Assembly: GCA_016218765.1 (NCBI GenBank)
Contig: JACRCZ010000033.1
Location: 1-64,000, forward strand
DNA length: 64,000 nucleotides
Direction of reading: 5' to 3'
Source: Deltaproteobacteria bacterium
Lineage (GTDB): Bacteria; Myxococcota_A; Polyangia; DRWM01; JAAZOP01
Shown: positions 23,169-59,305 of the stretch, piece after piece
Numbering within the stretch: position 1 is the stretch's first letter
Layout of the letters: the number at the start of each line of letters is the position of its first letter
Notes under the pieces: model-generated
What the model was told of the DNA's origin: nothing
Database searches by the model: none
What the model saw: only the letters and a program-made list of their open reading frames with translations
Position numbers and translations under genes: made by a program

Positions 23169-23227
23169 CTCGACGATCTCCCTTGGTCGCGGCTGCTGAT
23201 CGCGCCGCACCGCAACGCGCCCGACCG

Positions 23228-37522: not shown

Positions 37523-37571
37523 CCGAAATCTCTCCACCGGGCGGGTCGCGACCCGCCGTCCCGCATGAGTA

Positions 37572-38165
37572 CTAGATCGTGGGGCTGGCGTGCGGCGGCC
37601 GGTCCAACATCAGATCCGGAATATCCAGATCCGTCAGGTCTTCCGGCGTCAACCCGGGATCGCGAATCACCGTGACATCGGCGCCATCCCCGACGGGTCC
37701 CGTCGAGCCGATGCACTGCTCCACTTCCATCCGCAACGTCTGGATCTTCTGGTAGACGACGACCAGCACACGATACTCGTGCCGGCGCCGGTCCTCGTCG
37801 TTGAGATTGATGGCCTCGCGCAAGGAAGTGCGCCGATCGTCAAACGACTGGATCTGCGCGTTGATTTCCATCAGCTTGTTGTTCAGGCAGTTGATGCGGA
37901 CGATGTCCGGACGGTCTTCCTGCCGGGCCGACGCCAGGAGCCGCGAGGCGTACTCCTGCGTCTGCACGATCACGTCGTATTTCTCGTCGGCCCACCCGAG
38001 CTGCTCCTGCGGGGTCAGGTTGGCCTCCTGCTCGAACGACATCTGCGCCTCGGCACCCGAGGTGGAACCCGCAGGACCTTCCTGGGCCGTGGCGGTGAAG
38101 CCAGCCGCAAGGGCGGCACCCATCGCAACGGACGCCAGAACCAACCACTTTGACGCGATCCCCAT
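37572..38165 (-). CDS. Secreted helical protein of the export operon
   Basis: 197 residues. Clear signal peptide (MGIASKWLVLASVAMGAALAAG, cut near ATAQ). The mature part is mostly charged alpha helix, likely coiled coil: SFEQEANLTPQEQLGWADEK, then ASARQEDRPDIVRINCLNN, then DRRTSLREAINLNDEDRRRH. Two cysteines (NCLN, EQCIG) could pair. It ends in an Asp/Leu/Pro-rich tail. First gene of the operon with the barrel and the Wza-like protein, directly behind the best promoter of the window. A periplasmic scaffold or spacer is inferred; I know no characterised homologue. Confidence 0.75.
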   Translation of the reverse strand: MGIASKWLVLASVAMGAALAAGFTATAQEGPAGSTSGAEAQMSFEQEANLTPQEQLGWADEKYDVIVQTQEYASRLLASARQEDRPDIVRINCLNNKLMEINAQIQSFDDRRTSLREAINLNDEDRRRHEYRVLVVVYQKIQTLRMEVEQCIGSTGPVGDGADVTVIRDPGLTPEDLTDLDIPDLMLDRPPHASPTI

Positions 38166-38343: not shown

Positions 38344-39993
38344 CTACGGGGCGATGAAGCTGATCGGCAGGCGGACGCGGAAATCGCCGCCCTCGGGCGG
38401 GCTCGCCGTAAAGTTGAGCGACCGGAGCCGCCCGGAAATGCAGCTCGTGACGCCCGCGGCGTTCAACGCCGAGTCGTCGCTCGCGACCTCGACGCTCACG
38501 CTGCCCTGCTGGTTGATCACGATGATGAAGGTCAGGTCGCCCGAGAGCGTGGGGTCGCGCGACAACGCGTTGTTGTAGCAGGCCTCGATGGCGCCGCGCT
38601 TCTGCTGCAGTTTCTGCTGGAAGACGCTGCCGCTCATGCGGCCCGAGCCGCCGGCCGGCGAGCCGCCGCTGGTGCGGACCTTGCCCTTCTTGATCTCCTT
38701 GGTCTCGACCTTCGCCACCTCGGTGTGGACCGGCACCACCGCGGGTCCGGTCCCGGCAGCACCCTCGGTCCCGGTGCCCCCGATCTCGCCCACCGCGGGG
38801 CCCGAGGCGATGAAGTTGCCCGGAGTGGTGGAGTAGCCGCCGGCGCCGCCGCCCTCGGTCGTGCCGGCCGCCCCCTCCATCGCTCCCATCAGGTCGGTCA
38901 CGGCGCCGCCGACGCCGCCGAACTCCGTGCCGATGCCCATCACCGGGCCCGTGCCGTCGCCGCCGCCGAGGAGATTCTCGAGGTTGAGGCTGTTCTCGAC
39001 CTTGGCACCGATCGAGGCGATCTGGCCCTGGGTCAGCGACTCCCCGCCGATACTGACTCGGTTGGGATCCGGGCCGCGGCGCGTCGGGCCGGTCTCGGGC
39101 TTGACCTCGGTCACCGCGGCCTCGGGCGCCACCTCGCCGGTGTCGCCCGTCGTGGGCGTCTCCTCTCCGGTCTGTTCCCCCTCCCCCGGCTTCGTCTCCC
39201 CCTCGTCGCTCTCGTCGTCCTCGGGCTCCACTTCGGAAGCCGTCACGACCTGGATGTTGACCGGGGAGAAGTCCCCGGCGAGGATCTCGTCGAGCGTCGG
39301 CTTGGGCCACTCGGGGATCATCACGCCGCAGAACAGGCCGACGTGGATCGCGAAGGCGGCGCCCAGCGAGTACATGAAGCCGCCGTCCAGGCGGGCGATC
39401 CAGCCGCCGCGGACGGAAGCCGGGAGCTGCGGCCGGGGCTGGATGGGGGGCGGGACGACGAACTGGAACAGCATCGTCGTGTCGCCGATGACCACCTTGC
39501 CCTTGCAGTCCTCGGTCAGCGCCACCTGCGTGCCGCGGGAACCGGGGAGCGCCTTCTTGGAGGCACGGATCGCGGCGAGGTCCATCACCCCGCCGTCGGC
39601 GGCGGGGAACGCGACGCGCCCGGACATCTCCGGCGCGATCGTGAGGAAGTACTGATCGCCCTTGGGGCCGCCCGGACGCAGCTCGAAGAGCGGGAAACGG
39701 CCGGGCACGGAGGCGTGCGGAGTGACGAAGTGGTTCTTCTCCGACTGGCCGACGGTGACCGTCTCGCGCAGGCGGATGATCCGCTCCTCGATGATGCGCG
39801 CGCCCTGGATGACGCCGATGCGCAGGACCTTCGGGACGTTGGCCTGCAACGCGGCCATGGCGGCGGCGCCGCGGCGGATCACCCGCGGCTTGCCGTCCGG
39901 CCCGCGAACGACGCGGATCGGCTTGGGACGCTTGGCCATGCCGGGTGCGGCCGGGCCACCCTTCGCAACGGGCTGTACGCTTGGCTTGTTCAT
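38344..39993 (-). CDS. AgmX/PglI C-terminal-domain protein with FHA-like N-domain (GltG-like)
   Basis: 549 residues. The cytoplasmic N-terminal part includes an FHA-like beta domain (about 54-182: VLRIGVIQGARIIEERIIR, TVTVGQSEKNHFVT), then a single membrane segment (about 205-227). In the periplasm follow an acidic linker, a Gly-rich spacer and a TonB-like AgmX/PglI domain (about 455-549: RGAIEACYNNALSRDPTLSG, LTFIIVINQQGSVSVEV, paired cysteines, SLNFTASPPEGGDFRVRLP). The same layout is known in GltG/GltJ of the Myxococcus gliding machine, where the protein links the Agl motor to outer-membrane parts. It is the last gene after ExbB-ExbD-ExbD. The identification with GltG is by architecture and context, not by alignment. 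Confidence 0.82.
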   Translation of the reverse strand: MNKPSVQPVAKGGPAAPGMAKRPKPIRVVRGPDGKPRVIRRGAAAMAALQANVPKVLRIGVIQGARIIEERIIRLRETVTVGQSEKNHFVTPHASVPGRFPLFELRPGGPKGDQYFLTIAPEMSGRVAFPAADGGVMDLAAIRASKKALPGSRGTQVALTEDCKGKVVIGDTTMLFQFVVPPPIQPRPQLPASVRGGWIARLDGGFMYSLGAAFAIHVGLFCGVMIPEWPKPTLDEILAGDFSPVNIQVVTASEVEPEDDESDEGETKPGEGEQTGEETPTTGDTGEVAPEAAVTEVKPETGPTRRGPDPNRVSIGGESLTQGQIASIGAKVENSLNLENLLGGGDGTGPVMGIGTEFGGVGGAVTDLMGAMEGAAGTTEGGGAGGYSTTPGNFIASGPAVGEIGGTGTEGAAGTGPAVVPVHTEVAKVETKEIKKGKVRTSGGSPAGGSGRMSGSVFQQKLQQKRGAIEACYNNALSRDPTLSGDLTFIIVINQQGSVSVEVASDDSALNAAGVTSCISGRLRSLNFTASPPEGGDFRVRLPISFIAP

Positions 39994-40075
39994 CGTGTTT
40001 CGGCCCCCTGTCGTGCCGTGACCGGCGAGGTTGCGGGGTCCGTACGAGCGGAAAGGTTCGCGGGATCTCTCCGGA

Positions 40076-40693
40076 CTAGTCCTTCATCGCCGTGACCGTC
40101 CGGACGATCGCGAACATGTACCGCTGGTACCCCGCCTCCTTGGCCGTGTACAGCACCTCCTTGATGATCCGGACGGGCGTGTGAATGTCCGCGACGATGA
40201 GCAGCCAATCCTTCGTCGAGTACGCCCGCCCGGTCCGACGCTCGACCTCGCCCAGCTGCTGCTTGTACGCATCAAGCTGCGCCCGGAGGTCCTCGATGAG
40301 GTAGCTCGACTTGCCGCCGGCCTTCGCCTTCTCATCGACCGTCCGGACCCCGTTCTCCTCGCGCAGCAGCGCCGAGCGCTGCTGGTTGCAGTAGATCGCA
40401 TCCGCTTGGATCTCGACGCGGGCCGCACCTTGGATCTCGAGCTTGCTGGAGGAGAATGCGACCTGGAGCTTGTCGTTCTGGTTGATGCTGATGGGCTCCA
40501 TCGCGTAGTTGGACATGAGGAAGGAGAGGATGATGGTCATGGCGTCCATCAGCGACGTGATCGCCAGGCCGACCGGGGGAAGGTCCGAGTGGCCCTTCTT
40601 CTGCTTCTTCTTGGCCAGATAAGCGGCATCGAGCTGGATCCCCTGCTCGACTTCGGGAGGCGGTTGATTCGGCGGCTGCTGCTCGTAGCTCAT
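40076..40693 (-). CDS. ExbD/TolR-family motor subunit (Asp-containing)
   Basis: 205 residues. A Pro/Gln-rich cytoplasmic N-terminus with a basic patch (AKKKQKK), one TM helix (about 40-62, AITSLMDAMTIILSFLMS) and a periplasmic domain with a coiled-coil part (SSYLIEDLRAQLDAYKQQLGEVE) and the ExbD-like end DWLLIVADIHTPVRIIKEVLYTAKEAGY. The protonatable Asp of the ExbD/TolR/MotB family is present in the helix (D50). Works as the peg of a proton-driven motor with the ExbB/TolQ channel protein. AglS/AglQ-like by context. The ATG at 40693 (GGAGGG upstream) is preferred to a TTG three codons earlier. Confidence 0.9.
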   Translation of the reverse strand: MSYEQQPPNQPPPEVEQGIQLDAAYLAKKKQKKGHSDLPPVGLAITSLMDAMTIILSFLMSNYAMEPISINQNDKLQVAFSSSKLEIQGAARVEIQADAIYCNQQRSALLREENGVRTVDEKAKAGGKSSYLIEDLRAQLDAYKQQLGEVERRTGRAYSTKDWLLIVADIHTPVRIIKEVLYTAKEAGYQRYMFAIVRTVTAMKD

Positions 40694-40719
40694 CGGTCCC
40701 AAACCCTCCGCCGAGCCCC

Positions 40720-40740
40720 GGCGATCCTTGGAGGATCGCC
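40720..40740 (-). other. Intercistronic hairpin between the two exbD-like genes
   Basis: GGCGATCC-TTGGA-GGATCGCC, an 8-bp perfect stem with a five-base loop in the 100-bp gap. No U-tract. It could stabilise or process the mRNA and set different levels of the two subunits; inferred. Confidence 0.5.
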
Positions 40741-40793
40741 CTGAAGCCCGGCTTGGTACTCCCCCGGCGCCGGAGGTTCCCGAGCGCGGGAGA

Positions 40794-41576
40794 TTAATTC
40801 ACGAACCCGACCACCGGGAAAAGCAGCTCCTTCTTCATGGCGTCCTTCCAGGTCTTCGGATCCAGGAACGGGTCGGTCACGCCACCCTCGATCGCTTCCT
40901 TGACTTCGGTGATGAACGCCTCGTCCTTCTGCCAGTCGTAATCGAACGCGCGGAACCTGGAAAAGTCCATGAGTCCGACGAGTTGGCAGTACGGGATGTC
41001 ATCCTCGGACTTGATGTTGATCTGGTCCTTGTCGTCGAGCTGATCACCGAACGCCTGCGCCACCCGGTCCTTGATGTTGCGCAGGTTGATGTTGAACCCC
41101 TTCAGGTCCGGGATCTTGACCTGTCCGGCCGGGTTCTTCCAGCAGATGCTGACGAACTTCTCCAGGTACCCCCAGTAGGCGCAGTCATTGAACTCCCGGG
41201 GATCGGCGGGCGGCTGGCACTTGGAACCCTCGCTGCGGATCTCGTCCAGCGACATCGCCTTGTGCGCCAGGTCGACGCGGCCTTTCGTGCCGGTCGAAAC
41301 GTCCTCCGGCATCACGTCCTGGGCGACGTCCCGGCCCGCCATGAGGGTGATCGAGCCCTTCGTGAGGATCGCCACCAGACGGAGCCTCTTCTGCTCCTCC
41401 GACTGGCGCCCCTTGGACGTCCCGCCCTCGGCTCCGCGCAGGACCGTGATCTGGCCGAAGGTGACCCACGTCGTGACCCAGAGCATGAGCGGGATCAAGA
41501 CGCAGACCAGGTTCATGACGGGGACCAGATCCGGATCCTCGTACCCGCCGACGTCCTTCTTCATCTTGCCTGCCAT
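40794..41576 (-). CDS. ExbD/TolR-family motor subunit (Asn in place of Asp)
   Basis: 260 residues. Short cytoplasmic N-terminus, one TM helix (about 17-38: LVPVMNLVCVLIPLMLWVTT) and a large periplasmic domain with several cysteines (SKCQPPADPREFNDCAYWG, SICWKN, PYCQL). At the position where ExbD/TolR/MotB proteins carry the proton-accepting Asp, this protein has Asn (N22, codon AAC). A hetero-pair with the Asp-bearing subunit encoded next to it is likely, as in AglQ/AglS, with only one proton-carrying residue per pair. GGAGG lies eight bases before the ATG. Confidence 0.85.
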   Translation of the reverse strand: MAGKMKKDVGGYEDPDLVPVMNLVCVLIPLMLWVTTWVTFGQITVLRGAEGGTSKGRQSEEQKRLRLVAILTKGSITLMAGRDVAQDVMPEDVSTGTKGRVDLAHKAMSLDEIRSEGSKCQPPADPREFNDCAYWGYLEKFVSICWKNPAGQVKIPDLKGFNINLRNIKDRVAQAFGDQLDDKDQINIKSEDDIPYCQLVGLMDFSRFRAFDYDWQKDEAFITEVKEAIEGGVTDPFLDPKTWKDAMKKELLFPVVGFVN

Positions 41577-41709
41577 CGCCGAACCTCCTCGCGCCGACTT
41601 CGCCTTGCGGGCTTCGTCGGCCAGGGCTGCCGTGTCACGATCGACTCCGGCAAGCCCGGCCCGCCTTTGCCCTCACGGGCGACGGCGGGCCATCGCACGG
41701 CGCGGGCCG

Positions 41710-42363
41710 CTACTGCTGCGGCGCGCCCAACTGGCCGTGCGCGCGCGCCACCAGGAGGTTCTCGAGCTTGGTCGAGTACTGGTCGATCTCGTCGAGAATC
41801 TTCTTGGTGACGCCGGCGAGCACGAGGTACGCGGCCAGCGTCGGGATGGCGATGATCAGCCCGAACGCGGTCGTGTTCATGGCGACGGCGATGCCCTGCA
41901 TCAGCAGGGTCGAGCGCTCTTCCTGGCTCGCGACCTTGGACGCGGCGAACGCGAGGATGAGGCCCGTGATCGTTCCCAGCAGGCCCATCAGGGTGGCGAT
42001 GGAGGCGACCGGCGGCAGGGAGCCGGTGCGCTTCTGGACCATCGGCACGACCTCGAGCTGCGCCTCGGACAGCGCGTTCGAGATCTCCACCTCGCCCTTG
42101 TTGGCCCGCATCAGGCCGGCCTTGAGCACGCGCGCCAGCGCGGCGTTCGGCGCGGCGTTGCACAGCTTGATCGCGCGGTCGATGTTGTTCGCCATGACCA
42201 GCTTCTGGATCTGCGCCCAGAACTGCGTGGCGTTGATGTTGAAGCGGAAGAGCAGGAAGATGGTGCGCTCGATGATCAGCGCGACCGCTGCGACGGACGG
42301 AAGGATGATCAGCCACATCCAGATCGCGCCCTGCCCTTGGAATGCACCCTTGATGTAATCCAT
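41710..42363 (-). CDS. MotA/TolQ/ExbB-family proton channel (AglR-like)
   Basis: 217 residues with three TM helices (about 13-35, 120-142, 155-180). The family core LPPVASIATLMGLLGTITGL and the conserved MNTTAFGLIIAIPTLAAYL give the Thr/Gly/Pro positions of the ExbB proton path. With ExbD-like subunits it makes a proton-driven force generator in the inner membrane. GAGGAGG precedes the ATG at 42363. Followed by two exbD-like genes and a GltG-like gene, the order of the myxobacterial Agl motor; it could equally serve an Nfs-type spore-coat machine or an unassigned envelope motor. Confidence 0.93.
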   Translation of the reverse strand: MDYIKGAFQGQGAIWMWLIILPSVAAVALIIERTIFLLFRFNINATQFWAQIQKLVMANNIDRAIKLCNAAPNAALARVLKAGLMRANKGEVEISNALSEAQLEVVPMVQKRTGSLPPVASIATLMGLLGTITGLILAFAASKVASQEERSTLLMQGIAVAMNTTAFGLIIAIPTLAAYLVLAGVTKKILDEIDQYSTKLENLLVARAHGQLGAPQQ

Positions 42364-42460
42364 CGGTTCCTCCTCAGCCGAAACCTCGACCGGCCGTCCC
42401 CGGCCTTGTTTCCGTCGCGGCCCTGTTCTCCCGGGGCCTATCCCGCGCACGGTGGCCCGG

Positions 42461-42490
42461 ATTCTAAGCGAGCGCTCCGACGTCAAGCAA
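42461..42490 (-). promoter_or_regulatory. Candidate promoter ahead of the motor genes
   Basis: Minus strand TAGAAT (42466-42461) preceded after 18 bp by TTGCTT (42490-42485), or after 14 bp by TTGACG (42486-42481). It lies about 100 bp before the ExbB-like ATG, directly after a run of eight T that follows the upstream stop codon. Suggests that the motor genes can be transcribed separately from the TPR genes. Confidence 0.45.
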
Positions 42491-42499
42491 CAAAAAAAA

Positions 42500-42766
42500 T
42501 CAGAAGGGATCTCCCTCGACGCTGCGCAGGATGTCCTGCAGGAACGACTGCCGCAGCTCGAGCAGCCGGATGCCGAGCGGCTCGCGGCTGAACGTCACCA
42601 TCACGATGTTGCGCAGCGTGCCGTGGATCTCGATCGTGCCGCACACCAGGTACCCGTCCGCACCCATGTGGCAGGCGTCGGAGTCGGGCGTCTGCGCCGC
42701 GGCCGGGGAGACGAAGCTGGCCGCTGCGAGCAGGGCCGCGAGCGCCAACCACGATCTGCATCTCAT
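42500..42766 (-). CDS. Small secreted protein next to the motor genes
   Basis: 88 residues. GGAGGAGG precedes the ATG at 42766. Signal peptide MRCRSWLALAALLAAASFVS with cleavage near PAAAQ. The short mature part has two cysteines (DACHMGADGYLVCG) and a C-terminal half VMVTFSREPLGIRLLELRQSF that looks like a strand followed by an amphipathic helix. Sitting between the TPR lipoprotein and the ExbB-like gene, it is probably a periplasmic accessory of the machine. No characterised family recognised. Confidence 0.75.
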   Translation of the reverse strand: MRCRSWLALAALLAAASFVSPAAAQTPDSDACHMGADGYLVCGTIEIHGTLRNIVMVTFSREPLGIRLLELRQSFLQDILRSVEGDPF

Positions 42767-42789
42767 CGGTGTCAACCTCCTCCCGAAAA

Positions 42790-44400
42790 CTACCAACCGC
42801 CCCCACCCCATTCGTCACCGCCGCCGCCTTCCGTCGTACCGCCCTCGGTGCCCCCACCCTCCGTCGTGCCGCCCTCGGTCGCTCCCCCGCCCTCGTCCCA
42901 GCCGCCGCCCCAGCCGTCGCCGCCTTCCGTGGTGCCGCCCTCGGTGCCGCCGCCTTCCTCGCCCCAGCCGCCGGCCGCGGGGATCTCGGGAGGAGGCGCG
43001 GTGGCGAAGTCGTAGTCCGCCTGCGCGGCCGCGATCAGCGCGGCCAGCTCGGTGTCGGCGCCGGCGCCGCCCATCCCCTGCGCCCTGCGGAACGCGTCCA
43101 GCGCGCTCTGGTCCGCCTGCGCCCGGTCCAGCCCCTCGAAGGTCTGCGTCCGCGCATCGTAGTACACCATCCCGATGCCGATCGGGACCTCGGGCGACGA
43201 GGGATACAGGCGCTCGGCCTCGCGCAGCGCCGTCATCGCATCGGCGTACCGCCCCAGGCCGCGGTAGGCGTTGCCCAGACCGACCAGCACCGGCAGCCAG
43301 GACGGCGCGACCTTGCGCGCCTCCTCGAGGTTCTCCGTCGCGGGCGCGAGCTGGCCGGCGTCGAGCTGGAAGCCGGCGACCAGCACGCGCGCCTCGACGA
43401 ACGTCGGGTCGGCGTCGATCGCCTCCTCGTAGTACCGCTTCGCCTCGACCTTGCGCCCCTCCGACGCCGCGATCTGGCCGTAGGTGAACTTGACGTAGGA
43501 CCACAACCGGCACTTGGCGCGGTCCTCCGGGGTGCCGCCGCCCGAGCAATTCTCGAACGGCACGGTCTCCGTGAGCTTGTCGGCAATACGCTTCAGGAGC
43601 TCGAGCGTCAGCGCCGTCTGCTCGTCCTCGATGCTGGCCCGCAGGAGGATGCGGAACGCCTCCATGCTGTTGGCGTCGGCGATCAGCATGCGGCGCGCGA
43701 TCACGACGCCCTCGTTCGCCCGCCCCGCCGCGATGTAGGCCTCCGCCAGGATCGCCTGCATCTCGTTGTCCCCGGGAAACGCCGCGGCGCGGCTCTGCAC
43801 CTGCGAGAGGCCCTCGGACGCGCGACCCAGACGGTCGAGCAGCCGGAACAGGGCACGCAACGCCGTCGGATAATCGGGCTTGATGTCCAGCGCCCGCTGG
43901 TAGTTGAGGATCGCCTCGCGGTTGTCCCCGCCGCGCTCCGCCAGGTAGCCCAGGTTGTAGGCCGCGCGATAGGCGGTGGGGTTCGAGACCAGGACGGCTT
44001 CGAACGCGGAGCGCGCCGCGTTCGCGTCGCCGCGCTGCTCGAACGCCTCCACCCCCTGCTGGAAGCTGGAGGACTCGGACGCCGACAGCGGGATCAGCTC
44101 GCGGCCCGTCGTGGAGGCTCCCGACCCGGCGGCGAGCGCCTCGTCCACTCCCGCCTCCAGCGGCGAGTCGGGGGGAGGCGGGGGCGTGGTCGCCGTCGAT
44201 CCGCCCGCGCCGGACGTGGCACCGCCGGAGGTGCCTTCGGTCCCGGTCCCCCCGCCGGTGGTCGTCCCGCCCGAGGAGCCGCTGCCCGAGCCTCCGGGGC
44301 CCGGGGTCGGCGTCGTGGTCGGATGGTCGTCACCGCAGGCCGGTCCGAACGCGGCCGAAAGGAAGAAAGCGAGAGGGATCGCGATGTTTCTCGTACTCAT
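42790..44400 (-). CDS. TPR-repeat lipoprotein with Gly/Thr/Glu-rich tail
   Basis: 536 residues from the ATG at 44400 (GGAGG upstream; 60 further codons upstream are open but lack signal-peptide features). Signal peptide with a lipid Cys in FGPACGDD, a Gly/Ser/Thr-rich spacer, then about seven TPR units (about 115-460, for example AYRAAYNLGYLAERGGDNREAI written in parts as AYRAAYNLGYLAER and GDNREAILNYQRALDIKPDY). The C-terminal 60 residues are repeats of GGGTEGGTTEGG type with Trp. Likely on the periplasmic side of the outer membrane as an assembly scaffold, comparable to TPR lipoproteins of the Glt complex; specific identity not claimed. Confidence 0.85.
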   Translation of the reverse strand: MSTRNIAIPLAFFLSAAFGPACGDDHPTTTPTPGPGGSGSGSSGGTTTGGGTGTEGTSGGATSGAGGSTATTPPPPPDSPLEAGVDEALAAGSGASTTGRELIPLSASESSSFQQGVEAFEQRGDANAARSAFEAVLVSNPTAYRAAYNLGYLAERGGDNREAILNYQRALDIKPDYPTALRALFRLLDRLGRASEGLSQVQSRAAAFPGDNEMQAILAEAYIAAGRANEGVVIARRMLIADANSMEAFRILLRASIEDEQTALTLELLKRIADKLTETVPFENCSGGGTPEDRAKCRLWSYVKFTYGQIAASEGRKVEAKRYYEEAIDADPTFVEARVLVAGFQLDAGQLAPATENLEEARKVAPSWLPVLVGLGNAYRGLGRYADAMTALREAERLYPSSPEVPIGIGMVYYDARTQTFEGLDRAQADQSALDAFRRAQGMGGAGADTELAALIAAAQADYDFATAPPPEIPAAGGWGEEGGGTEGGTTEGGDGWGGGWDEGGGATEGGTTEGGGTEGGTTEGGGGDEWGGGGW

Positions 44401-44444
44401 GACGGCACCTCCGGCCGCGCGCGACGGCCGCGGGATCCTACGAA

Positions 44445-47400
44445 TCACTGGGCGATAGGATCGAGCCCACCTCCCAACGCCTCGCCGGTCACCTCCGGAA
44501 GGCGCCCGTTCGCGAACAGCTGGCTCGGATCGTCGGTGAGGCTCAGCGTCCGCACCAGATCGATGGCCGAGCGCACCCATTCGTTGGATACTCCCGTCGC
44601 ACGGGCGTAGACGACCGCGCCGACGATCGACCGCGGCGGGGGCTCGGTGCCGTCGCCGATGAGGTACAGCCGGATCATCTCGTCAATCGTGACGCCGTTC
44701 TCGACGACGACGCTGCGGATTCCGGCCGCCAGCTCGTCGAGCAGGTCGCGCAACGTGAGGCCGCTCGGGAGCTGGAGGTCCAGCCACTCGGCCCGGAGGC
44801 GCTGTTCGAGCGTGGCGAGGCGCAGGACGAGGCGGTTCCAGACGAGCGAGATGCGGTAGCGCGCGGCGGTGCCCCAGGTCGGGGCGACGGGGTAGTCGCG
44901 GATGACGGCGAGATAGGCGACGGTCAGCTCCTTGGCCTGGGTGACGAGCTTGTCCTTGTAGGCACCGAGGTCGTCGCCGAACGTCCGGAGGGTGCGCGGC
45001 TCGAACTGGAGCCGATCGTAGGTGTTGAACCTGGCCTCGAGCGCCTGGAAGCGCGGCTCGCCGAGGATCTCCTCGACCTCGATGACGAGCTGCGCCTCGG
45101 CGGCGTCGAAGCCGGCGCCGACGACGGCCTTCTGCGTGGGGGAGAGCCGGTTGTAGGCGTCCTCCAGGAGCCCGATGGCGCGTTCCTCCGCGCGGCGGTC
45201 GCTCTGGCGCTCCGCGTCCTTGTAGAGGATCCAGCGCACGCGCAGGATGTCCATGACGTGGGCCGAGTCGCCCTGGAACTGGCTCAGGTAGGCGTCGGCG
45301 GCGCGCCGCATGTCGCTCCAGGCGGATGCGCGGCGGTAGTAGTCGATGACGTCCATGCGCATCGCCGTGGCTTCCTGGGTCGAGCGCGTGTAGCCCTCGT
45401 TGAGGATGCGCTCGGTGAGTCGGCCCGCCTCGTTCCAGTTGCCCTGGAGCCGGCGGATGTCGGCCTGCGCGCGCTCGGACTCGGCCGTGTACTCGGCGTC
45501 GGAGCAGGGCCGGCGAGCGTCGGAGATGCACTCCGAGACGGGGCGGAGCCGCTCGCCGCGGACCGGTCGGCCGGCCGCGCGCTCGAGCGCCGCGAAGTTC
45601 TGCGCGGCCTCGTCGAGGTCGTAGGTCTGCATCGCGTTGAACGCGATGTAGAAGTAGGCCTCGGGCAGGCGCACGCGGTTGGGATCGTCGGGGCCATCGC
45701 CCTCGCACGCGTCGACGTGGGGTCCCGAAGGCGAGCAGAACTCGACCAGCTTCTTCCACGTCTCGACCGCCTGGATGGGCTCGCGGGCCTGGCCGTACGC
45801 GACCGCGGCGATGCGGATGGCCGCCGGAGAGTCCTCGTGCTCGGGGTGCGCCGCGACGACCTGGAGCAGCGCCACGGCGGCCCGGCGGTACGCGTCCGGC
45901 TCGCCGCTTTCCCGGGCGGCGTCGTACTCGTTCCAGGCCGCTTCGAACTCCTCGCCCAGTCGCTGCAGGATGATGCCGCAGCGGATGCGCTCGCCCGGAT
46001 CTTCGATGTCCTCGCAGTTGCCGGTGGGGGGCGGCTGGACGGGTCCGGTTCCGCCGCCGGCTTCGAAGCAGGTGCCTGCCTCGGCGGCGTCGCGGAGCTG
46101 CTCGATCCGCTCGCGATCCTGGGCGTAGCCGGCCAGCGTGCTCAGGATCTGCCACGATTCCAGGGCCAGGGAGCGTTGCGCCGCATTGCCGCAATACTCG
46201 TTGAACAGCTCCTCGTACAACCGCTGGGCCTCCGGCCAGTGGCCCAGGAAGAAGAGCTGGCCGGCGATGCTGCGGCGGTAGCCGAGCGACTCGGGGTCGT
46301 CCGGGTAGCGCTGGACCCAGCGCTCCATCGCCTCGTGCAGGCCCGCGACCACGGCCGGGATCGGCATCGGGTCGGCGATGGTCCGCTCCGTCCCGTCCTC
46401 CGCGACCTCGACGTGCGAAGGCGGCTCCTCCGGGATGACGTGCGCCATCGTCGCGAACTGGTTGCCCAGAATCGTGATCTGGTTGGCCAGCGCGTCGCGC
46501 TGGTGCGAGGTGGCCAGGGTCGATTGCTCGACGGTCCGGTACTGCGCCAGCGCCTCGTCGGTCCGCCCGAGGAAGTAGTAGCAGGTGGCGAGGTTGAACA
46601 TGTTGTCGTAGGTGAAGGCCGACGACGGGTATTCGGTGAGGAGCTGCCGGTAGGCCTCGATCGCCAGCTCGAACATCCGGTCCTTGATGATGCAGCTTTC
46701 CTCGGCGCCGGCATCGCAGTTGGCCTGGTGCGTCTCCGCGGCGGCGTGGTACTGGGCCGCCGCGTCCTGCAACGCGCCCTCGGCCTGCTCCTCCGCCTCC
46801 TGGATCAGCTCCGGGTTGTCGCGGTTCTCGTCCCACCAGCGCTGGCCGACCGCGGGGTCGGGGCACAGCGGATTGCCGTGGGCGGCGCCGACCGGCGAGG
46901 CAACGACGGCGCCCGTCCCGGGCCCGCCGCTCTGGCGGAACATCGCCAGGCACTCGATCGCCTCCAGCATCTCCTGCCGCGCCGCGGGATCCTCCCCCGC
47001 GTTCTCGCGGTACAGGTCGACCAGCTTGCGCAGGATCTGCGGAATCTTGGGGTGCAGCGGGAAGCGCTTGACGAAGAGGCGGTACACGCCCGCCTTCTTC
47101 TGCCACGTGTCGCACTTGCTGTTCGGCTCCTCGCAGCACTCGTCGATCAGCGTCTCCAGGAGCTCCTGGTAATACGGCGCGTCCTGCGGCACGACCTGGG
47201 CGTCCGCGACGCGCTCCGCCGGGGTCTGCGAGTGGCGGGCGCCGAGCCAGTAGTCGTAGATCAGGTTGGCCGCGATGCCGATGAGGACGTTGATCTTCTG
47301 GCGGTCGGCCGTCGACTGGTAGTCGCTGAACTCCCCGCCGAAGAGCTTGGCCAGGAACAGGCGGTACGCCTCCATCGCCTCGTCGTAGCGGTTCATGCCC

Positions 47401-48698: not shown

Positions 48699-48708
48699 TG
48701 CCCGCTCC

Positions 48709-51111: not shown

Positions 51112-51950
51112 CACTCCCCTCCGCCCGTCGCCGACGCGGCGAGGTCCCGGATCTGCTCGGTGAAGCGGATGGTCGGCCGCTCCTCGATCGCCGTCAGCGG
51201 ATCCCCCTGCTCGAAGCCGATGCCCTCGATCACCACTTCCTTGCCCCCCGCGATCGTGATCGTGTGGCTCGAGTTGACGCGGAAGCGGTAGCCCTGGAGG
51301 TAGGAGAAGATGCCGTGGCCGTAGCCGCGGTACTCGATCTCCACCGCGACCGTGTGGTCGCCCGGCGCGATGATCGACTCGTAGACGTTGATCTCCTCGA
51401 GATCCCCCAGCTCGCCGCTGTCGTCGACCTGCTGGTAGACCGGGCTGTTGTCCAGCAGGTAGACCAGCTTGACGAGCTGGAACGTCCCGCTCATCTCGTT
51501 CTTGTGGATGATCTTGATCTTGGAGCGGCCCGAGGCGCTGCCCTGGATCACCGTCTCGGCGAGCTGCGCGAGCCGGGCCTTGGAGCGGAACACCTCCTGC
51601 TTGAGCTGGTTGATCCGCTGCTCCAGCTCGCGAAGCTGCAGCGCGTACGAAGCGACCGCCTGATCCTCGCCCTCGCGCACCGCCTGCACGGTCGTCCCCG
51701 GCGGGCTGCCGGGCGGCGTGGTCGGCCCCGTCGTCGCCGGCATCGTGGCCGGAGGCGTCGCCTCGGGCGGCGTCGTCGGAGGAGGAGGCGTCGCCGGCGT
51801 CGTCTCGCCCGCCGGAGGCAGCGCGTCGGGGTAGGCGGGAGTCGCACCCGGACCCGTGGGGGCCGGGTCGGCCGGCTGCGCGCCGGCCGCGGTCGAAACC
51901 GCCGTCATCAGGAGGAGAACGAAGGAAATCCTCGAGACCGTGTTCGCCAT
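51111..51950 (-). CDS. Periplasmic protein with Pro/Thr-rich linker and beta-domain
   Basis: 279 residues from the ATG at 51950 (GGGGAG upstream). Signal peptide ending STAAGAQ, a Pro/Thr/Ala-rich linker (about 25-88), a short coiled coil (QLRELEQRINQLKQEVFRSK, about 105-135) and a beta-rich C-terminal domain (KIKIIHKNEMSGTFQLVKLV, HTVAVEIEYRGYGHGIF). Pro/Ala linkers like this can be mistaken for dihydrolipoamide acyltransferase linkers; no lipoyl or acyltransferase motif is present. Coupled to the TPR gene downstream through TGATG. Probably a periplasmic accessory of the Glt-like machine; I cannot name a characterised homologue. Confidence 0.75.
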   Translation of the reverse strand: MANTVSRISFVLLLMTAVSTAAGAQPADPAPTGPGATPAYPDALPPAGETTPATPPPPTTPPEATPPATMPATTGPTTPPGSPPGTTVQAVREGEDQAVASYALQLRELEQRINQLKQEVFRSKARLAQLAETVIQGSASGRSKIKIIHKNEMSGTFQLVKLVYLLDNSPVYQQVDDSGELGDLEEINVYESIIAPGDHTVAVEIEYRGYGHGIFSYLQGYRFRVNSSHTITIAGGKEVVIEGIGFEQGDPLTAIEERPTIRFTEQIRDLAASATGGGE

Positions 51951-52105
51951 GGACCGCTCCCCTGCATCCCGGCCTTCTTCGCGATCATTTCGGGGGCCCC
52001 GACCCGACTCCTTCCGGCAACCGAGCACAGGCCCCCCGGGAGGATCGCACTGCGCCAGGATCTCGCGGATTCATACACTCGACGGGCGGAAGGCGCAAGC
52101 CCCCA

Positions 52106-54397
52106 CTACGGCCAGTTGTCGGAGACCGTGAAGTCGGCCAGGTCGACCCGGATCAGCCCGTCGCTGGAGGAGTCCACGACCAGGAGGGCCGGGCCGGTGC
52201 CCGTCGTGACGTCCAGGGCCTCCGCGACCGGGAGCGAGCCGGTCTCGACCGACAACGCCGCGAAACCACCGGTCGCGTCCAGCTCCCAGCGCATCCCCCG
52301 CGGCGTCGCCACGGTCCCCGCGTCCATCGTGAAACAGAGGAAGGGGTTCTTGTGGATCACGCCGTCGGTCGCGCGGCCGTCGTGCAGGCAGCGCACGTCC
52401 ACCGGCTCCGTCGTGCAGTTCTCGTACGGCGTGCAGATCGCGTCGTCCGGGAACTCGATGCACAAGCCGGGCACGTCGTCCGTCGGATCCGGGTCCTCGC
52501 CCACCGTCACGTGGTGCTGGAACCCGGTCGCCTCGCCCCGCACCAGCCACCGCCCCCCGACCCGGACCTCGTAGCGCACCGCCCAGGGGAAGCACTCGCG
52601 CGTCGGCAAGGGATCCGTGTTGCCGTCGGCCCCGACGACGGTTTCGAGCAACAACCGGTCGGCCCGCGCCTCGACGATCCGGTACTCGAGCTCCGCCTCC
52701 TGGCCGACGGCGCCCCAAGCCGAGCAATCGGTCGCTTCGGAGAGCGGGTCCGGGCCGTCCTTGATGATCAGGATGTCGCCGGCCAGGACGCCGCGGGCGC
52801 AGAACGGCATCGCGCGGTCCCTGAACCAGCCGGCGTCGCCGACCTGTCCGCCATTCCCGTCGGTCCACGGAACGACGCCCTCGTACTCCACGATCCACGT
52901 CTGGCTGACCGCGCGGCGGGGGTGCACGGTGTCGAAGAGGACGCCCCAGGTGGGGTCGCCCTCGGCGGTTTCCCCGCCGAAGTCGTGGAAGCGGGGGTAC
53001 TCGTCGGGCGGCGCGCCCGAGTACGACAGGGCCGCGCCGCTAGCCTGGAAAAGCGACGGCGGCTCGTCGGACCAGCGCGGCCCCTCGGCACCGGCGATGC
53101 CGTTGCGCAGGACGTGGCGGGGACAGGCGGACTCGACGTAGCTGCCCTCGCCCGCCGCGGCGCCGTCCCAGCACGCGGCGTTGCCGTGGTCCTCGACGTC
53201 GACCGCGAAAACCTCGCCGAACGACGAGACGACGAACCCGAACGTGCCGTGCATCACCTCCGGCTCGGGATCGGCCGGGTCCGGCACGGGATCCTGCGCG
53301 ATCCGGCCGAGGAGCACGTCCTGCGCCAGGCCGGGAACGATGAGCTCGTTGCGCCACTCCAGCGGGTCGCCGGTGGACATATCGATGGCGGCCAGGGTCT
53401 CGGCGTCGAGGACCATCACGCCGCGCGAGCTGCCGTCGACGGCGTAGATCCAGCGGCCGGGCTCGTCGCCCGCCGGACCCCTCCCCGGGGGCTCGATCGC
53501 CATCGCGACGGACGGTCCGGGAAGCTGGAACGGGTCGGGAGCGTGGGCGGCCACCGTGAGGGCGAACGCGTCGTCCCAGGTCAGCACGGCCAGCCAGGGA
53601 GCGGCGCGGTCGCCGACGACCAGCCGGCCGCGGACGTCGTCGACCAGGATCGACCAGGGCACGCCCAGACCGGGCAACGGGTCGCCCTCGGGGTCCAACA
53701 GCGGGAAGGGGTCGAGCACGACCGGGGGCCCGACGACCGGGGTTTCCCCGAGCGTCACGACCGCGACGGCGGAGAGCCCGGGCAGCGTCACGACGACATG
53801 GGTGGCATCGAGATAGGCGACGTTGGAGGCCGGGACGGGGAGCGGGACGCGCGAAAGGAAGGGACGGCCGGCGTCCAGCGAGATGCGCGGGAGGAGGTTG
53901 GCCGGGTTGACGATCGACAGGAACGGCACGCCGTCGGGGTTGGTCGGGTCGTCGCCGGGCCGGGGGTCGCCGAGGTTGGCGACGGCGAGCGAGGAGCCGT
54001 CGGGGGCCGCGGCAATGGCGTTGGGGAGGGGGCCGACGACGACGGGCGAGGAGAGGGGCTGGCGAAGGTCGAGGTCGAGCAGGCGGCGGTCGCGCAGGTT
54101 CACGGCCGCCAGCTCGCCGCGGTAGCGCTGGACGACGAAGGCGAAGAGGTCGCCGTCGAGGTCCTTGGCGCACTGATCCATCGTCGTGCCGGCCCAGGTG
54201 GTCGTCCCGTCCTCGTGCCGCGTCTCCAGGGCGCAGAGCAGCGCGACGTCCGAGGCGCTGTCCATCTGCCGCGTCGTGGTCTCGACGGCCGCGCTCTCGC
54301 AGCCGCACCAGAGCAGAGCGGAAAGAGCGGGAAGAGCGGCGAGTGCGGGGAGCCGGACGGGATCCGCTGCGAGCGTGCGCGGCATCGTCCTACTCAT
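52106..54397 (-). CDS. Large beta-propeller-like lipoprotein
   Basis: 763 residues. Lipoprotein signal (PALAALPALSALLWCGC), encoded by a GA-rich simple repeat of the kind seen at 1431-1484. The N-terminal 430 residues show propeller blades of YVTN/NHL type (LPNAIAAAPDGSSLAVANLG, WSILVDDVRGRLVVGDRAA, RWIYAVDGSSRGVMVLDAE); the rest has paired cysteines (CTPYENCTTEPVDVRC) and strands of unknown fold. Its ATG overlaps the stop of the upstream lipoprotein by 8 bp, so the pair is translationally coupled. Function unknown; outer-membrane surface or periplasmic face expected. Confidence 0.78.
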   Translation of the reverse strand: MSRTMPRTLAADPVRLPALAALPALSALLWCGCESAAVETTTRQMDSASDVALLCALETRHEDGTTTWAGTTMDQCAKDLDGDLFAFVVQRYRGELAAVNLRDRRLLDLDLRQPLSSPVVVGPLPNAIAAAPDGSSLAVANLGDPRPGDDPTNPDGVPFLSIVNPANLLPRISLDAGRPFLSRVPLPVPASNVAYLDATHVVVTLPGLSAVAVVTLGETPVVGPPVVLDPFPLLDPEGDPLPGLGVPWSILVDDVRGRLVVGDRAAPWLAVLTWDDAFALTVAAHAPDPFQLPGPSVAMAIEPPGRGPAGDEPGRWIYAVDGSSRGVMVLDAETLAAIDMSTGDPLEWRNELIVPGLAQDVLLGRIAQDPVPDPADPEPEVMHGTFGFVVSSFGEVFAVDVEDHGNAACWDGAAAGEGSYVESACPRHVLRNGIAGAEGPRWSDEPPSLFQASGAALSYSGAPPDEYPRFHDFGGETAEGDPTWGVLFDTVHPRRAVSQTWIVEYEGVVPWTDGNGGQVGDAGWFRDRAMPFCARGVLAGDILIIKDGPDPLSEATDCSAWGAVGQEAELEYRIVEARADRLLLETVVGADGNTDPLPTRECFPWAVRYEVRVGGRWLVRGEATGFQHHVTVGEDPDPTDDVPGLCIEFPDDAICTPYENCTTEPVDVRCLHDGRATDGVIHKNPFLCFTMDAGTVATPRGMRWELDATGGFAALSVETGSLPVAEALDVTTGTGPALLVVDSSSDGLIRVDLADFTVSDNWP

Positions 54398-55757: not shown

Positions 55758-55786
55758 GGCGGCGGGACTCTACGCGAGCCGGCCGG

Positions 55787-56032
55787 CTACGGCAAGTGGG
55801 AGAAAAGACGGGACGCGAGACGGACGATCTCGCCGCCCATCCACGCACCGGACACGGCGAGCGCCACCGAGACGGCAAGGATCTTGGGCACGAACGACAA
55901 GGCATGATCCTGGATCTGCGTCACCGCCTGCAGGAACGACACCACCAGCCCCACCAGCAGGCTCGCCGCCAGCACCGGCAACGACAGCACCAGCGACAAC
56001 ACCAGCGCGTCCCGAGCCAACTGAAGGACCAT
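55787..56032 (-). CDS. fliQ: FliQ/SctS-family export-gate subunit, orphan
   Basis: 81 residues, two TM helices with the central motif of FliQ: QAVTQIQDHALSFVPKILAV and the end SGAWMGGEIVRLASRLFSHLP. In flagellar and type III secretion systems four FliQ subunits wrap the FliP-FliR core of the export gate. The LSFVPK form is closer to FliQ than to SctS. GGGGGAAA precedes the ATG. None of fliP, fliR, flhA, flhB or any needle or rod gene is in the window. The gene lies inside a long minus-strand array of Glt/Agl-like genes, between a GltJ-like gene and a propeller lipoprotein. Either the rest of a gate is encoded elsewhere, or this is a repurposed FliQ. Confidence 0.9.
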   Translation of the reverse strand: MVLQLARDALVLSLVLSLPVLAASLLVGLVVSFLQAVTQIQDHALSFVPKILAVSVALAVSGAWMGGEIVRLASRLFSHLP

Positions 56033-56064
56033 CCCTGTTTCCCCCTTCCCCTTCCCCCTCCCCC

Positions 56065-56145
56065 TTCTCAGCGTTCCTCTCGGCGCCCTCAGTGCCTCAG
56101 CGGTAAGTCGGATCTCCGCGCCCTCCCCCCCCTCCGCGCGCCCTC
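56065..56145. repeat. CTCAGCGTTCCTCTC repeat, copy 2
   Basis: Same orientation and about 85-90% identical over 60 bp to 18665-18747, continuing into CTCCGCGCCCTCC runs. It fills the 129-bp gap between the GltJ-like and fliQ genes. Confidence 0.65.
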
Positions 56146-56161
56146 CCCCCCGTCCGCGCCC

Positions 56162-57658
56162 TCACCTCTCATGGAACCCGAAAGGCAGCACGAGGCGCGT
56201 GGTCGCGCCCGCGCGCGGGAACTGCCAGGCCCGTACCTTGCCCACGATGCAGCTCTCGAGGTCGCCCGTGATGTAGTCCTCGCTGGCGATGGTGGCGCTG
56301 CGCACGGAGCCGTCGGGCGAGATCTCGAGCGTGAGGCGGAGCGCGAGGTCGCCGATGAAGTCGCGCTGGCGCGCCTGGGCGTAGCAGTGCTCGATCCCGC
56401 CCTTGCCGGCCGAGACGACCGGGAGGATCTGGTCGGTGCCGAGCGGTCGCGGCTGGTCCCCGCCGCCCGCGGCGAGCGGCCCGCCGCCGGTGCGGATCTG
56501 GCCGCCGACACCGATGTCGCGCCCCGGGAGGAAGGGCGGCGTCCCGGAGGAGCCGGACGTGCCCGAGGAGCCGGTGCGGCCGCCGTCGCCTCCCGAGGGA
56601 CGGGGGCGCGAGCCGGTCGAGCCGCCGGAGGAGGGCGTGGTCCCGGGCGTCCCCGGCTGGGCCGGGTTGACCTCCTCCTCGGCGACGATCGTGGGGTTGG
56701 TGAGCTGGATCGTGAGCGATCCGGAGCGGATGGTCGGCAGATTCGCCTCGACCGTTCCGGCCTCCTCGGCCGCGGCGATGCCGACGACGCCCTGCGTGTC
56801 GGCGGCGGCGGGGCTCGCGGCGCCGCCGGAGACGAGGTACATGAAGACCATGCCGAGGGCGAAGGCGATGACGGCGACGAGGCCGTGGACGAGCCAGCGG
56901 TTCCAGCCCGGGGTCGGCGGCACCAGGCTGGCGGACGTCGCGGTGGTGACCTTGGCGCCCGCCATCGGCGGGAGCTCGAAGACCGAGCCGCGCCAGGGCG
57001 CCCCGTCGGCGGCCGCGCCCTTCTTCGACGCGGCCTCGGCCAGGTAGCCCAGGTCGCGCACCTGGCCCAGCGGACGCCACTCGTCGAAGCCTTCGCGCCA
57101 GACCAGCGAGTTCAGCCCGACCTCGCCGTTGTCGATGTGACGCCGGATGGCTTCCTCGCTCATCGGGCCCATCGGCTGGTTGCGGATGGAGACGTGCCAG
57201 CGGGCGAGCTTGCGGGAGACCTCCTGCTTGACGGCCTCCTTGGCGGCGTCGCCCAGGAACGGGCTGGCGATGATGTGCGTGGCGTCGTCGGAGTCGGGCA
57301 GGGCCGCGGCGGGAGCCGCGGTGGGGGGTGCGGCTGCCGCGGCCAGGAGCGCCAGCTTTCCCGGCGCGGGGGTCTTCCCGGCGCCCTCGAACGCTTTCTG
57401 GAAGCGCTCGCCCAAGGCCCCGGCGGCCGCGGCGGGCGGGGACGAGTCGGCGGACTTGGCCAGGGGCGTCGCGATGCGCTCGCGGGGCCGCGCCGCGGGC
57501 GGCGGCGGCAGCGACGGCTGCGAGCCCGCGGGCAGGTTGGGATCGCGGACCTCGAGCACGTTGCCGCAGCCGCGACAACGGATCTTGACCGCCTTGCCGC
57601 GCAGACGCGCCTCGTCGATGTCGTACTTGGCCTTGCACCGGTCGCAAACGAATTGCAT
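56162..57658 (-). CDS. Zinc-ribbon/GYF/TM/AgmX-domain protein (GltJ-like)
   Basis: 498 residues. N-terminal zinc ribbon MQFVCDRC...CRGC (C5, C8, C28, C31), a Pro/Ala-rich linker, a GYF-type domain (about 153-200: WHVSIRNQPMGPMSEEAI, SLVWREGFDEWRPLG), one TM helix (about 254-277) and, in the periplasm, a Gly/Ser-rich linker and the AgmX/PglI TonB-like domain (about 400-498: GIEHCYAQARQRDFIGDLAL, SPDGSVRSATIASEDY, CIVGKVRAWQFP). This domain order is that of AgmX/GltJ of Myxococcus, the regulated switch linking cytoplasmic polarity proteins to the gliding machine. Next to a receiver-domain gene (18 bp gap), which suggests a signal input. Confidence 0.87.
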   Translation of the reverse strand: MQFVCDRCKAKYDIDEARLRGKAVKIRCRGCGNVLEVRDPNLPAGSQPSLPPPPAARPRERIATPLAKSADSSPPAAAAGALGERFQKAFEGAGKTPAPGKLALLAAAAAPPTAAPAAALPDSDDATHIIASPFLGDAAKEAVKQEVSRKLARWHVSIRNQPMGPMSEEAIRRHIDNGEVGLNSLVWREGFDEWRPLGQVRDLGYLAEAASKKGAAADGAPWRGSVFELPPMAGAKVTTATSASLVPPTPGWNRWLVHGLVAVIAFALGMVFMYLVSGGAASPAAADTQGVVGIAAAEEAGTVEANLPTIRSGSLTIQLTNPTIVAEEEVNPAQPGTPGTTPSSGGSTGSRPRPSGGDGGRTGSSGTSGSSGTPPFLPGRDIGVGGQIRTGGGPLAAGGGDQPRPLGTDQILPVVSAGKGGIEHCYAQARQRDFIGDLALRLTLEISPDGSVRSATIASEDYITGDLESCIVGKVRAWQFPRAGATTRLVLPFGFHER

Positions 57659-57676
57659 GTCAGGTCCAACCGTCCG

Positions 57677-59305
57677 TCATAGCAACTTGAGCAGGTGCTC
57701 CTTGATCGAGGAACGCGCGGCCTCGTCGGTGGAGGCGTTCGCGGCCCGCTCCCACATTTCGACGGCCTTGAGCGGGAATCCCGCGTGCTCGTACAGCTGC
57801 CCGAGTCCGCGCAGCGTGCCGAAGTCGCCCGGCTCGAGTTCCAGCGCCCGCTCCAGCTCCTGGATGGCCTGGTAGATCCGGCCCTGGCGGCCGTAGAGGA
57901 TGCCGAGCTGGTAATGGAGCTGGTGCGACTGCGGGTCGGCGTCGACGCCGCGCACCAGGTGCACGACGGCACCCTCCAGGTCGCCGTCGCGATACTTGCG
58001 GATCCCCGCCGCCAGCTCCGCCTGCGCCTGCGCGCTCGGCTCGCGCGCGGCGACGGCGGCGGCGGGGGCGCCCGAGAGGATCTGCTCGACCTTCTCCGCC
58101 AGCTCGCCGATCTTGAACGGCTTCTCCATGAAGTGATCGACGCCGTAGGACTTCTTGAGGTCGGTCGCGAAACGCCAGCCGCGGTAGATGGCGCTGATCA
58201 TGATCACGGGGATGTGCGCGTAGCGGGTGGATTGCTTGAGCCGGCGGCACACGTCGAAGCCGTGGATCTCGGGGAGCATCGCGTCCAGGACGAGCAGGTC
58301 GGGCGGCTGCGCCTGGACCATGCGCAGCGCCTCCGCGCCATGACTCGCCTCGGTCACCTCGAACCCGCGGTCGCGCAGGACCCGCACCACGAGCTGCCGG
58401 ATGTCCGCCTCGTCGTCGACCACCAGCACGCGCCGGGGACGCGGCTCGCGGGACTCGGACGCTGCCGCGACCGGCGGCGTCGGAAGGCCCATCGCCTCCA
58501 GATCGATCGGCAGCACCGTGACGGGCGAGCGGGCAAGGTCGCCGGCGGCGGGCGACGCGCCGTGGGCGAAGACGATCGCCTGCTCGAGCCGCTCGGGCGG
58601 CGCCGCACCGGGCATGGCGTAGGTCCGATCCCCGGCGGCACGGCCGCGGTAGCAGGCGTCGAGGAAACGGCGGAGCTGGGAGTGGGGGGCGACGTGCGGC
58701 ACCAGCCGCAGGCCGGAGACGAACTCCAGCTCGTCCAGCGTCCGCTTCTGGCCGGGGTCGGCGACCGCCACCAGCAGGCGGTCGTCGCGCACCGCGAACG
58801 GCAGGATCAAGGAGCGCATCGCGATGTCCCGCGGCAGGAGGTCCAGCGTGGAGAGGTCGAACGTGACGCGGTCCAGGTCGACGGCCGGCACGCCGGTGTC
58901 GGCGGCCAGCGTCCGCAGGAACGCCGCCTTCGTGCCCTCGGACCGATCGCCCGTGTCCTCCTCGACCGCGTCCTCGGTCGCCGGCTCCGCGACGTCGATC
59001 CCGACGACGTCCACCTCGAGATCGAGCGAGCTCGGCGGGGGCGCGGACGCCACGGACGAGGCGAAGGGCAGCTCCGGGGGCGGCGCGGAGTCGGCCGCGG
59101 ACGGCGGCGGCGCGGAGGACGACGAGGAGTTGGCAGGTCCGAACGTCTCGTCGAACGAGCGGTCGAACGCCTCGTCGATATCCAGCCCGCCGCCCGAAGG
59201 CTCGCCCGTCGCACGCGGAGCGCCCGGCGACGCCGGCGCGGCCGGGGCGGCGCGGCGCCGCAACGTGATCTTGGCAAGCTGATGCTTGTCGCGAGAATCG
59301 GACAT
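57677..59305 (-). CDS. GspE-N-like/receiver/TPR regulator
   Basis: 542 residues, cytoplasmic. A disordered acidic start (1-120) is followed by a GspE N-terminal (MshEN-like) domain (about 125-220: AAFLRTLAADTGVPAVDLDR, LPFAVRDDRLLVAVADPGQKRT). Then come a complete response-regulator receiver (about 291-411) with acidic pocket D297/D298, phospho-acceptor D341 in VLDAMLP, S371 and K395 (EKPF), and a C-terminal TPR pair (about 430-542). No DNA-binding output, so it works by protein contact, probably on the GltJ-like protein encoded 18 bp downstream. The full MshEN c-di-GMP loop is not evident. No histidine kinase is in the window. GGGAGG lies nine bases before the ATG. Confidence 0.87.
   Translation of the reverse strand: MSDSRDKHQLAKITLRRRAAPAAPASPGAPRATGEPSGGGLDIDEAFDRSFDETFGPANSSSSSAPPPSAADSAPPPELPFASSVASAPPPSSLDLEVDVVGIDVAEPATEDAVEEDTGDRSEGTKAAFLRTLAADTGVPAVDLDRVTFDLSTLDLLPRDIAMRSLILPFAVRDDRLLVAVADPGQKRTLDELEFVSGLRLVPHVAPHSQLRRFLDACYRGRAAGDRTYAMPGAAPPERLEQAIVFAHGASPAAGDLARSPVTVLPIDLEAMGLPTPPVAAASESREPRPRRVLVVDDEADIRQLVVRVLRDRGFEVTEASHGAEALRMVQAQPPDLLVLDAMLPEIHGFDVCRRLKQSTRYAHIPVIMISAIYRGWRFATDLKKSYGVDHFMEKPFKIGELAEKVEQILSGAPAAAVAAREPSAQAQAELAAGIRKYRDGDLEGAVVHLVRGVDADPQSHQLHYQLGILYGRQGRIYQAIQELERALELEPGDFGTLRGLGQLYEHAGFPLKAVEMWERAANASTDEAARSSIKEHLLKLL

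Follow-up and report, generated by a model that had tools for sequence, protein, structure and literature searches.

Two probable neighbouring machines in a Polyangia gene array: an Agl/Glt-type motor with a polysaccharide exporter, and a FliQ module of a scattered type III apparatus

We analysed a stretch of 64,000 nucleotides, here called the window, which comprises the first 64 kb of the 72.5-kb contig C140 (JACRCZ010000033.1) of a deltaproteobacterial metagenome-assembled genome (MAG) from the Polyangia (G000, GCA_016218765.1; 5.9 Mb in 154 contigs, completeness 79.6%). Genomes, contigs, loci and families are designated G, C, L and f. From position 59305 down to 35412 the minus strand carries an array of genes which we interpret, with moderate confidence, as two neighbouring machines: an Agl/Glt-type motor with a polysaccharide exporter (module A) and the SctS station of a scattered type III apparatus (module B). 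Module A corresponds to what Luciano 2011 (PMC3169522) named the "core complex", here joined to an outer-membrane polysaccharide exporter. The FliQ protein of module B is best read, from its sequence, as the SctS subunit of a non-flagellar type III apparatus whose genes are scattered over the genome, and the adjacency of module B to module A is likely accidental.

A preliminary description made from the letters of the window had reported a compact motor and Glt array between 59305 and 38344, and this array is present as claimed. The listed genes all lie on the minus strand in the expected order, with a high GC content at third codon positions (GC3) and intergenic spacing of -136 to +178 bp, and matches to Pfam and NCBIfam confirmed most of their domains. 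Not noted in the description were the MshEN domain of the receiver protein and the outer-membrane polysaccharide translocon with which the array closes. Beyond 38344 the array continues with three more genes, down to 35412, that are part of the conserved unit. Module A (52028-35412) contains the following genes.

51111..52028, minus strand: secreted Pro-rich/coiled-coil protein (Ppro); orthologues head the motor operon in f9 and others; the start may be internal
48709..51114, minus strand: GltC-like TPR protein (NF033756, 1.7e-15)
44445..48728, minus strand: TPR protein of 1427 aa in the GltD position (TPR_6, 2.5e-11)
42790..44580, minus strand: GltE-like TPR protein (NF033758, 6e-28); annotated N-terminus probably too early
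42500..42811, minus strand: small secreted protein in the GltF position; C-terminal motif (LRxSF ... SV) common to 11 loci
41710..42486, minus strand: ExbB/AglR-like channel subunit (PF01618, 4e-21); three transmembrane segments; the listed TTG start is probably too early
40794..41576, minus strand: ExbD1 (PF02472, 3e-4); Asn replaces the proton-carrying Asp
40076..40702, minus strand: ExbD2 (PF02472, 4e-9); Asp retained
38344..39993, minus strand: GltG-like FHA/transmembrane/AgmX coupling protein (NF033760, 4e-20; NF033768, 3e-15; FHA fold)
37572..38165, minus strand: secreted protein orf197, family unassigned (neither a Pfam nor an NCBIfam match)
36155..37537, minus strand: outer-membrane beta-barrel, about 18 strands predicted (AlphaFold model; PDB barrels, E ~1e-6)
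35412..36110, minus strand: short periplasmic OPX of the D1D2 type (PF02563, 1.5e-20, SLBB; PDB 9n9a)

The similarity to Glt proteins was borne out by profile searches, with E-values of 1e-32 for GltJ, 4e-20 for GltG, 6e-28 for GltE and 2e-15 for GltC. The GltC-, GltE-, GltG- and GltJ-like proteins reached 56.8, 98, 72 and 114 bits, respectively, against curated NCBIfam cut-offs of 450, 225, 650 and 450; judged by their sequences they are relatives of the Glt equivalog families, not members. The N-terminal domain of the GltG-like protein, which had been described as FHA-like, gave no match in Pfam, and the description held by fold: the AlphaFold model finds its best matches in the PDB among FHA domains (5yyx, E 2.7e-3, probability 1.0). 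Among the unassigned proteins of the array no match to GltA, GltB, GltH, GltI or GltK was obtained, although models may not exist for all of them.

In a single cluster the array unites gltC, gltE, gltG, aglRQS and, by position and TPR content only, gltD (the 1427-aa protein gave no match to a GltD profile). This is the composition of the Agl/Glt core complex, "Group B" of Luciano 2011. Like that core, the array comprises an ExbB and two ExbD proteins, TPR proteins in the order C-D-E, a small secreted protein following GltE and an FHA/transmembrane/AgmX protein. The compactness that had been put forward as a novelty is not new: gammaproteobacteria, Geobacter and Fibrobacter were already reported to encode the core complex in one cluster, and the authors regarded its function in 2011 as unknown (PMC3169522). 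The array analysed here differs in having a barrel and a short OPX at its end; the main text of that paper makes no mention of polysaccharide export.

These two last genes fit the composite polysaccharide translocon of PMC9601211 (EpsY/EpsX, ExoA/ExoB, WzaB/WzpB), in that a short OPX without membrane helix is adjacent to a barrel with about 18 predicted strands. The OPX has 232 aa (280 aa being the upper limit applied), ends after the second periplasmic (SLBB) domain without a C-terminal helix and resembles a solved export protein of 186 aa (9n9a, E 2.6e-40). The barrel expected for a composite translocon is 18-stranded, elliptical and like AlgE (PMC9601211); the low-confidence model of the barrel found here has its top PDB matches in CymA and OmpG, and AlgE ranks lower. 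Unlike the composite translocon, the pair closes a motor operon, and in many cases no synthesis genes are recognised alongside.

The order of module A recurs across Polyangia families. The complete series Ppro-GltC-GltD-GltE-ExbB-ExbD1-ExbD2-GltG-orf197-barrel-OPX was found in f1 and f9 and partly in f2. A scan of genome contigs with a GltG alignment yielded 46 loci from MAGs titled Myxococcota, Polyangiaceae, Sandaracinaceae, Myxococcales or Deltaproteobacteria and a few titled less precisely; as the loci were selected by GltG, all counts are conditional on it, and presence was scored with profiles built here in loci of sufficient length only. GltG was accompanied by GltC in 27/30, GltD in 29/33, GltE in 31/36, orf197 in 28/36, the barrel in 29/35 and OPX in 23/33 loci. 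The closest named relative, by GltG of this locus, is the groundwater MAG NC_groundwater_1657 (94% identity). Within the genus, G003 keeps the whole array gene by gene and G002 and G001 keep pieces of it on short contigs, which disfavours a chance arrangement.

Alignments of the transmembrane regions revealed an asymmetric ExbD pair. In 28 of 29 ExbD1 orthologues an Asn occupies the position of the Asp found in E. coli ExbD and TolR, the sole exception being the outlier L182. ExbD2 retains this Asp in all but one of 26 aligned rows (25 of 26), and that one row is a badly aligned long protein. With Asn in ExbD1 and Asp in ExbD2, the pair differs from AglQ and AglS, which are both said to carry the protonatable Asp (PMC9389320). 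According to the same source, the exchange of Asp for Asn in MotB mimics protonation, and the dimers of AglQ and AglS may be homo- or heteromeric, a point still unsettled. The Asn/Asp pair bears on this question, as a homodimer of ExbD1 should not carry protons. A search with the single ExbD1 sequence reached 25 of 116 genomes; a search with an alignment gave strong matches in f1, f2, f8, f9, f16, f19 and f21 and weaker ExbD relatives nearly everywhere, and is for this reason unfit for counting motors. Two ExbD1 paralogues are encoded elsewhere in G000 (C122:9922-10674, 60% identity; C111:149122-149784, 48%), the latter within a long frame with a resemblance to ExbD2 as well. In three arrays a protein of about 200 aa occupies the place of the ExbB-ExbD-ExbD trio (L143:9181-9765, L158:9103-9693, L164:9171-9800); the one in L143 has at best a marginal ExbB match (E 0.01).

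We infer that the motor works on surface polysaccharide; the transport of spore-coat glycan by Agl-Nfs in M. xanthus provides a precedent (PMC3858216). Module A and Agl-Nfs have in common a single cluster without GltI, GltJ and GltK and, for Agl-Nfs, an Agl motor acting on surface polysaccharide; in that machine the motor is encoded away from nfs and a separate Exo system exports the polymer, whereas here motor and exporter share one array. In the mechanism that we propose, protons would flow through the ring of ExbB and a heterodimer of ExbD1 and ExbD2, of which ExbD2 alone has a protonatable Asp. The GltG-like protein would relay the movement via the TPR proteins of the periplasm to the translocon of barrel and OPX. 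The movement might be used to shift or lay out a polysaccharide of a Wzx/Wzy-type pathway on the cell surface, as Agl-Nfs does with the spore-coat polymer.

Module B (59305-52106) is separated from module A by a gap of 77 bp, from 52106 to 52028, and contains five genes.

57677..59305, minus strand: MshEN + receiver + TPR regulator (Pfam; MshEN PF05157, 4e-20); orthologue beside GltJ/FliQ in f9 and f15
56162..57658, minus strand: GltJ-like protein with zinc ribbon (5e-11), GYF_2 (8e-16), one transmembrane segment and AgmX tail (NF033768, 5.5e-13); NF033761, 1e-32, 114 bits against a cut-off of 450
55787..56032, minus strand: FliQ/SctS export-gate subunit (PF01313, 2e-26); the only FliQ in the genome
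54390..55757, minus strand: propeller lipoprotein 1, lipobox LAGC (Lactonase, 2e-7); after FliQ in G001, G002 and G003; genus only
52106..54397, minus strand: propeller-like protein 2 (NF038117, marginal, 0.0017); kept in G002 and G003; genus only

Of the two propeller lipoproteins described before, the first was thus supported and the second obtained a marginal match only. FliQ had been regarded as a new motor part; this sole FliQ has its own machine, since the genome also encodes FliP (C9), FliR (C107), FlhB (C42), FlhA (C22), an SctJ-type lipoprotein (C144) and an SctN-type ATPase (C98), seven genes on seven contigs in all. FliP, FliR and FlhB are each present in single copy, and FlhA gave two matches, of which one was located; its best profile match covers positions 1-402 of 657. 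FlhB retains the NPTH motif. A flagellar origin of FliQ was rejected: the SctJ-type protein is a lipoprotein of 257 aa without the FliF part, and the tree places FliP from this genus outside the flagellar clade with a support of 100/100, its position relative to the other sequences being subject to long-branch warnings. FliP, FliQ and FliR lie on three contigs of this incomplete MAG, and the components of a non-flagellar type III system, SctRSTUV, SctJ and SctN, are all there. The scattering is not an effect of assembly, because G114 and G074, assembled in about 5 and about 20 contigs, also have the same gate genes far apart, those on the same contig by more than 150 kb. The apparatus is perhaps needleless like the Myxococcus T3SS*, which is without secretin and needle (PMC12075869; "Myxo" group, PMC3459982). 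The two share a non-flagellar gate, an SctJ-type protein and an SctN ATPase; unlike in Myxococcus, the genes are scattered over the genome without a single locus, and SctS is tied to a receiver/GltJ pair. FliQ would mark a station of this export apparatus, at which the receiver/MshEN regulator and the GltJ-like membrane protein may act. An MshEN-domain protein also adjoins FliP in G000 and G001 (L080:8575-10329, L087:1968-3662), paralleling the MshEN-receiver protein near FliQ.

The two modules touch only in this genus. Three f9 genomes (G050, G063, G084) have a complete motor operon with barrel and OPX as its last genes, and in them the receiver-GltJ-FliQ module lies on another contig, with FliR after FliQ and, in G063, BamA after FliR. 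In G047 (f15) receiver, GltJ-like and FliQ genes stand together with no motor genes nearby. Module B is likewise apart from the motor in f2 (all in L073-L079), and the motor is on a different contig in f9 and f2. In G004, from the same order, the GltJ-FliQ pair adjoins glycolytic genes and secG (as read from the translations) and the motor genes are on another contig; G011 and G096 also have the pair, in G011 with no receiver gene called beside it. None of the 46 GltG loci has either FliQ or the GltJ-like gene in its flanking sequence (in L140, from the same genus, FliQ would fall beyond the flank), and L143 and L174 contain weak matches to the receiver gene (52-56 bits). The link between GltJ and FliQ is not universal, as no GltJ-like gene was seen beside FliQ in f12 (G060, G074, G110, G114), where the neighbours, named from translations and in the case of the tRNA synthetase also by Pfam on a related protein, resemble phosphatidylglycerophosphate-synthase-type and class-II tRNA-synthetase-type genes.

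That description had understood the whole array as one machine, with both AgmX-type switches, FliQ, the receiver and the propeller lipoproteins as working motor parts. The genes are indeed contiguous on the same strand with short gaps or overlaps, and the arrangement is kept in G003 and, as far as the contigs reach, in G002 (GltG 67% identical). We nevertheless consider this very unlikely, and the single-machine interpretation was rejected, because the FliQ module occurs without nearby motor genes in f9, f2 and f15, and the six type III partner genes of FliQ are elsewhere in the genome. Even less credence is due to the idea, concerning module B only, that the type III genes including FliQ are decaying relics. 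The genes are unlinked, the FlhA match is partial and FliR was not found in G002; against decay, FliP, FliQ and FlhB are open and free of stops in all four members of the genus, NPTH is kept in FlhB, and distant families possess the same gene set.

For module A two other functions were weighed. It is unlikely that it serves general envelope maintenance or a different cargo, in a Tol-Pal-like manner, with barrel and OPX as mere neighbours: motor trio and OPX are both variable in presence and f9 has no PCP or Wzy gene beside OPX, but in most loci, over several families, GltG-orf197 is followed by barrel and OPX. A gliding motor is suggested by the relatives of GltC, GltE and GltG, by the AglRQS layout and by the derivation of the gliding machine from the core (Luciano 2011); it is quite unlikely, as the core alone was held unlikely to drive motility (PMC3169522), the five Glt proteins named above were not recognised in the array and the GltJ-like protein belongs to the other module. 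The interpretation as a motor with a polysaccharide exporter next to a type III station has several points against it as well. Of the 36 loci that have 3 kb or more of upstream sequence, only 8 show the complete ExbB-ExbD-ExbD trio in its place and the other 28 do not, no PCP/Wzy genes were seen next to OPX in f9, every Glt profile score is far under its curated cut-off, and the models of the GltG-like protein and the barrel are of low confidence (mean pLDDT 55 and 61). Within the genus, the contiguous, same-strand position of module B could mean co-regulation with module A. The interpretation is built on genes, their order and residue patterns in a MAG that is 79.6% complete.

Convergent with the array, three linked genes lie on the plus strand.

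34814..35311, plus strand: NusG-like gene (PF02357, 8e-17); adjoins OPX in L140 and L141
31868..34672, plus strand: Wzy-like polymerase/ligase with TPR (PF04932, 1e-11); near OPX in L140, L141, L161 and L164
29453..31846, plus strand: PCP/tyrosine-kinase-like gene (GNVR, 9e-13; Wzz, 4e-6); interrupted by an in-frame TAG

PCP and/or Wzy genes are near OPX in L140, L141, L161, L164 and L170, and a kinase part is near it in L180. The TAG of the PCP/kinase-like gene (31229-31231), which corresponds to a sense codon in the closely related G003 (L140), is a nonsense mutation or an assembly error. About 12 kb from the motor operon, positions 18777-23210 hold a giant gene for a BcrAD/BadFG-type activase; two f9 genomes have long genes like it in size and start close to the motor operon (L218:3893-8146; L219:1-4250). 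A sigma-70-type factor gene adjoins the motor operon in two f9 genomes and is a possible regulator (L218:1919-2518 by Pfam; L219:5498-6097 by its similar start). The series of short minus-strand open reading frames with high GC3 at 10672-16386 may be the shadow of a large opposite-strand gene. Searches for tRNAs and with Rfam gave no matches in the window.

At the level of titles and abstracts, with subscription literature mostly outside the scope, no earlier report of an Agl/Glt-OPX link or of a scattered type III set in Polyangia was found. A type III set that is scattered, with a gate gene beside another machine, calls for caution in deducing a machine from a single locus. The array gives a hint of the cargo moved by the gliding motor's ancestor: tentatively, and with considerable doubt, the ancestral Agl/Glt core may have been a motor-driven exporter or distributor of polysaccharide, running here on an asymmetric ExbD heterodimer with one arm fixed as a protonation mimic (Asn). 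If this is true, the asymmetric ExbD pair would be a natural answer to the question of heterodimeric subunits of the AglQ/AglS type, and the conserved linkage to a polysaccharide translocon would provide a concrete cargo for the core ancestral to gliding and spore-coat assembly.

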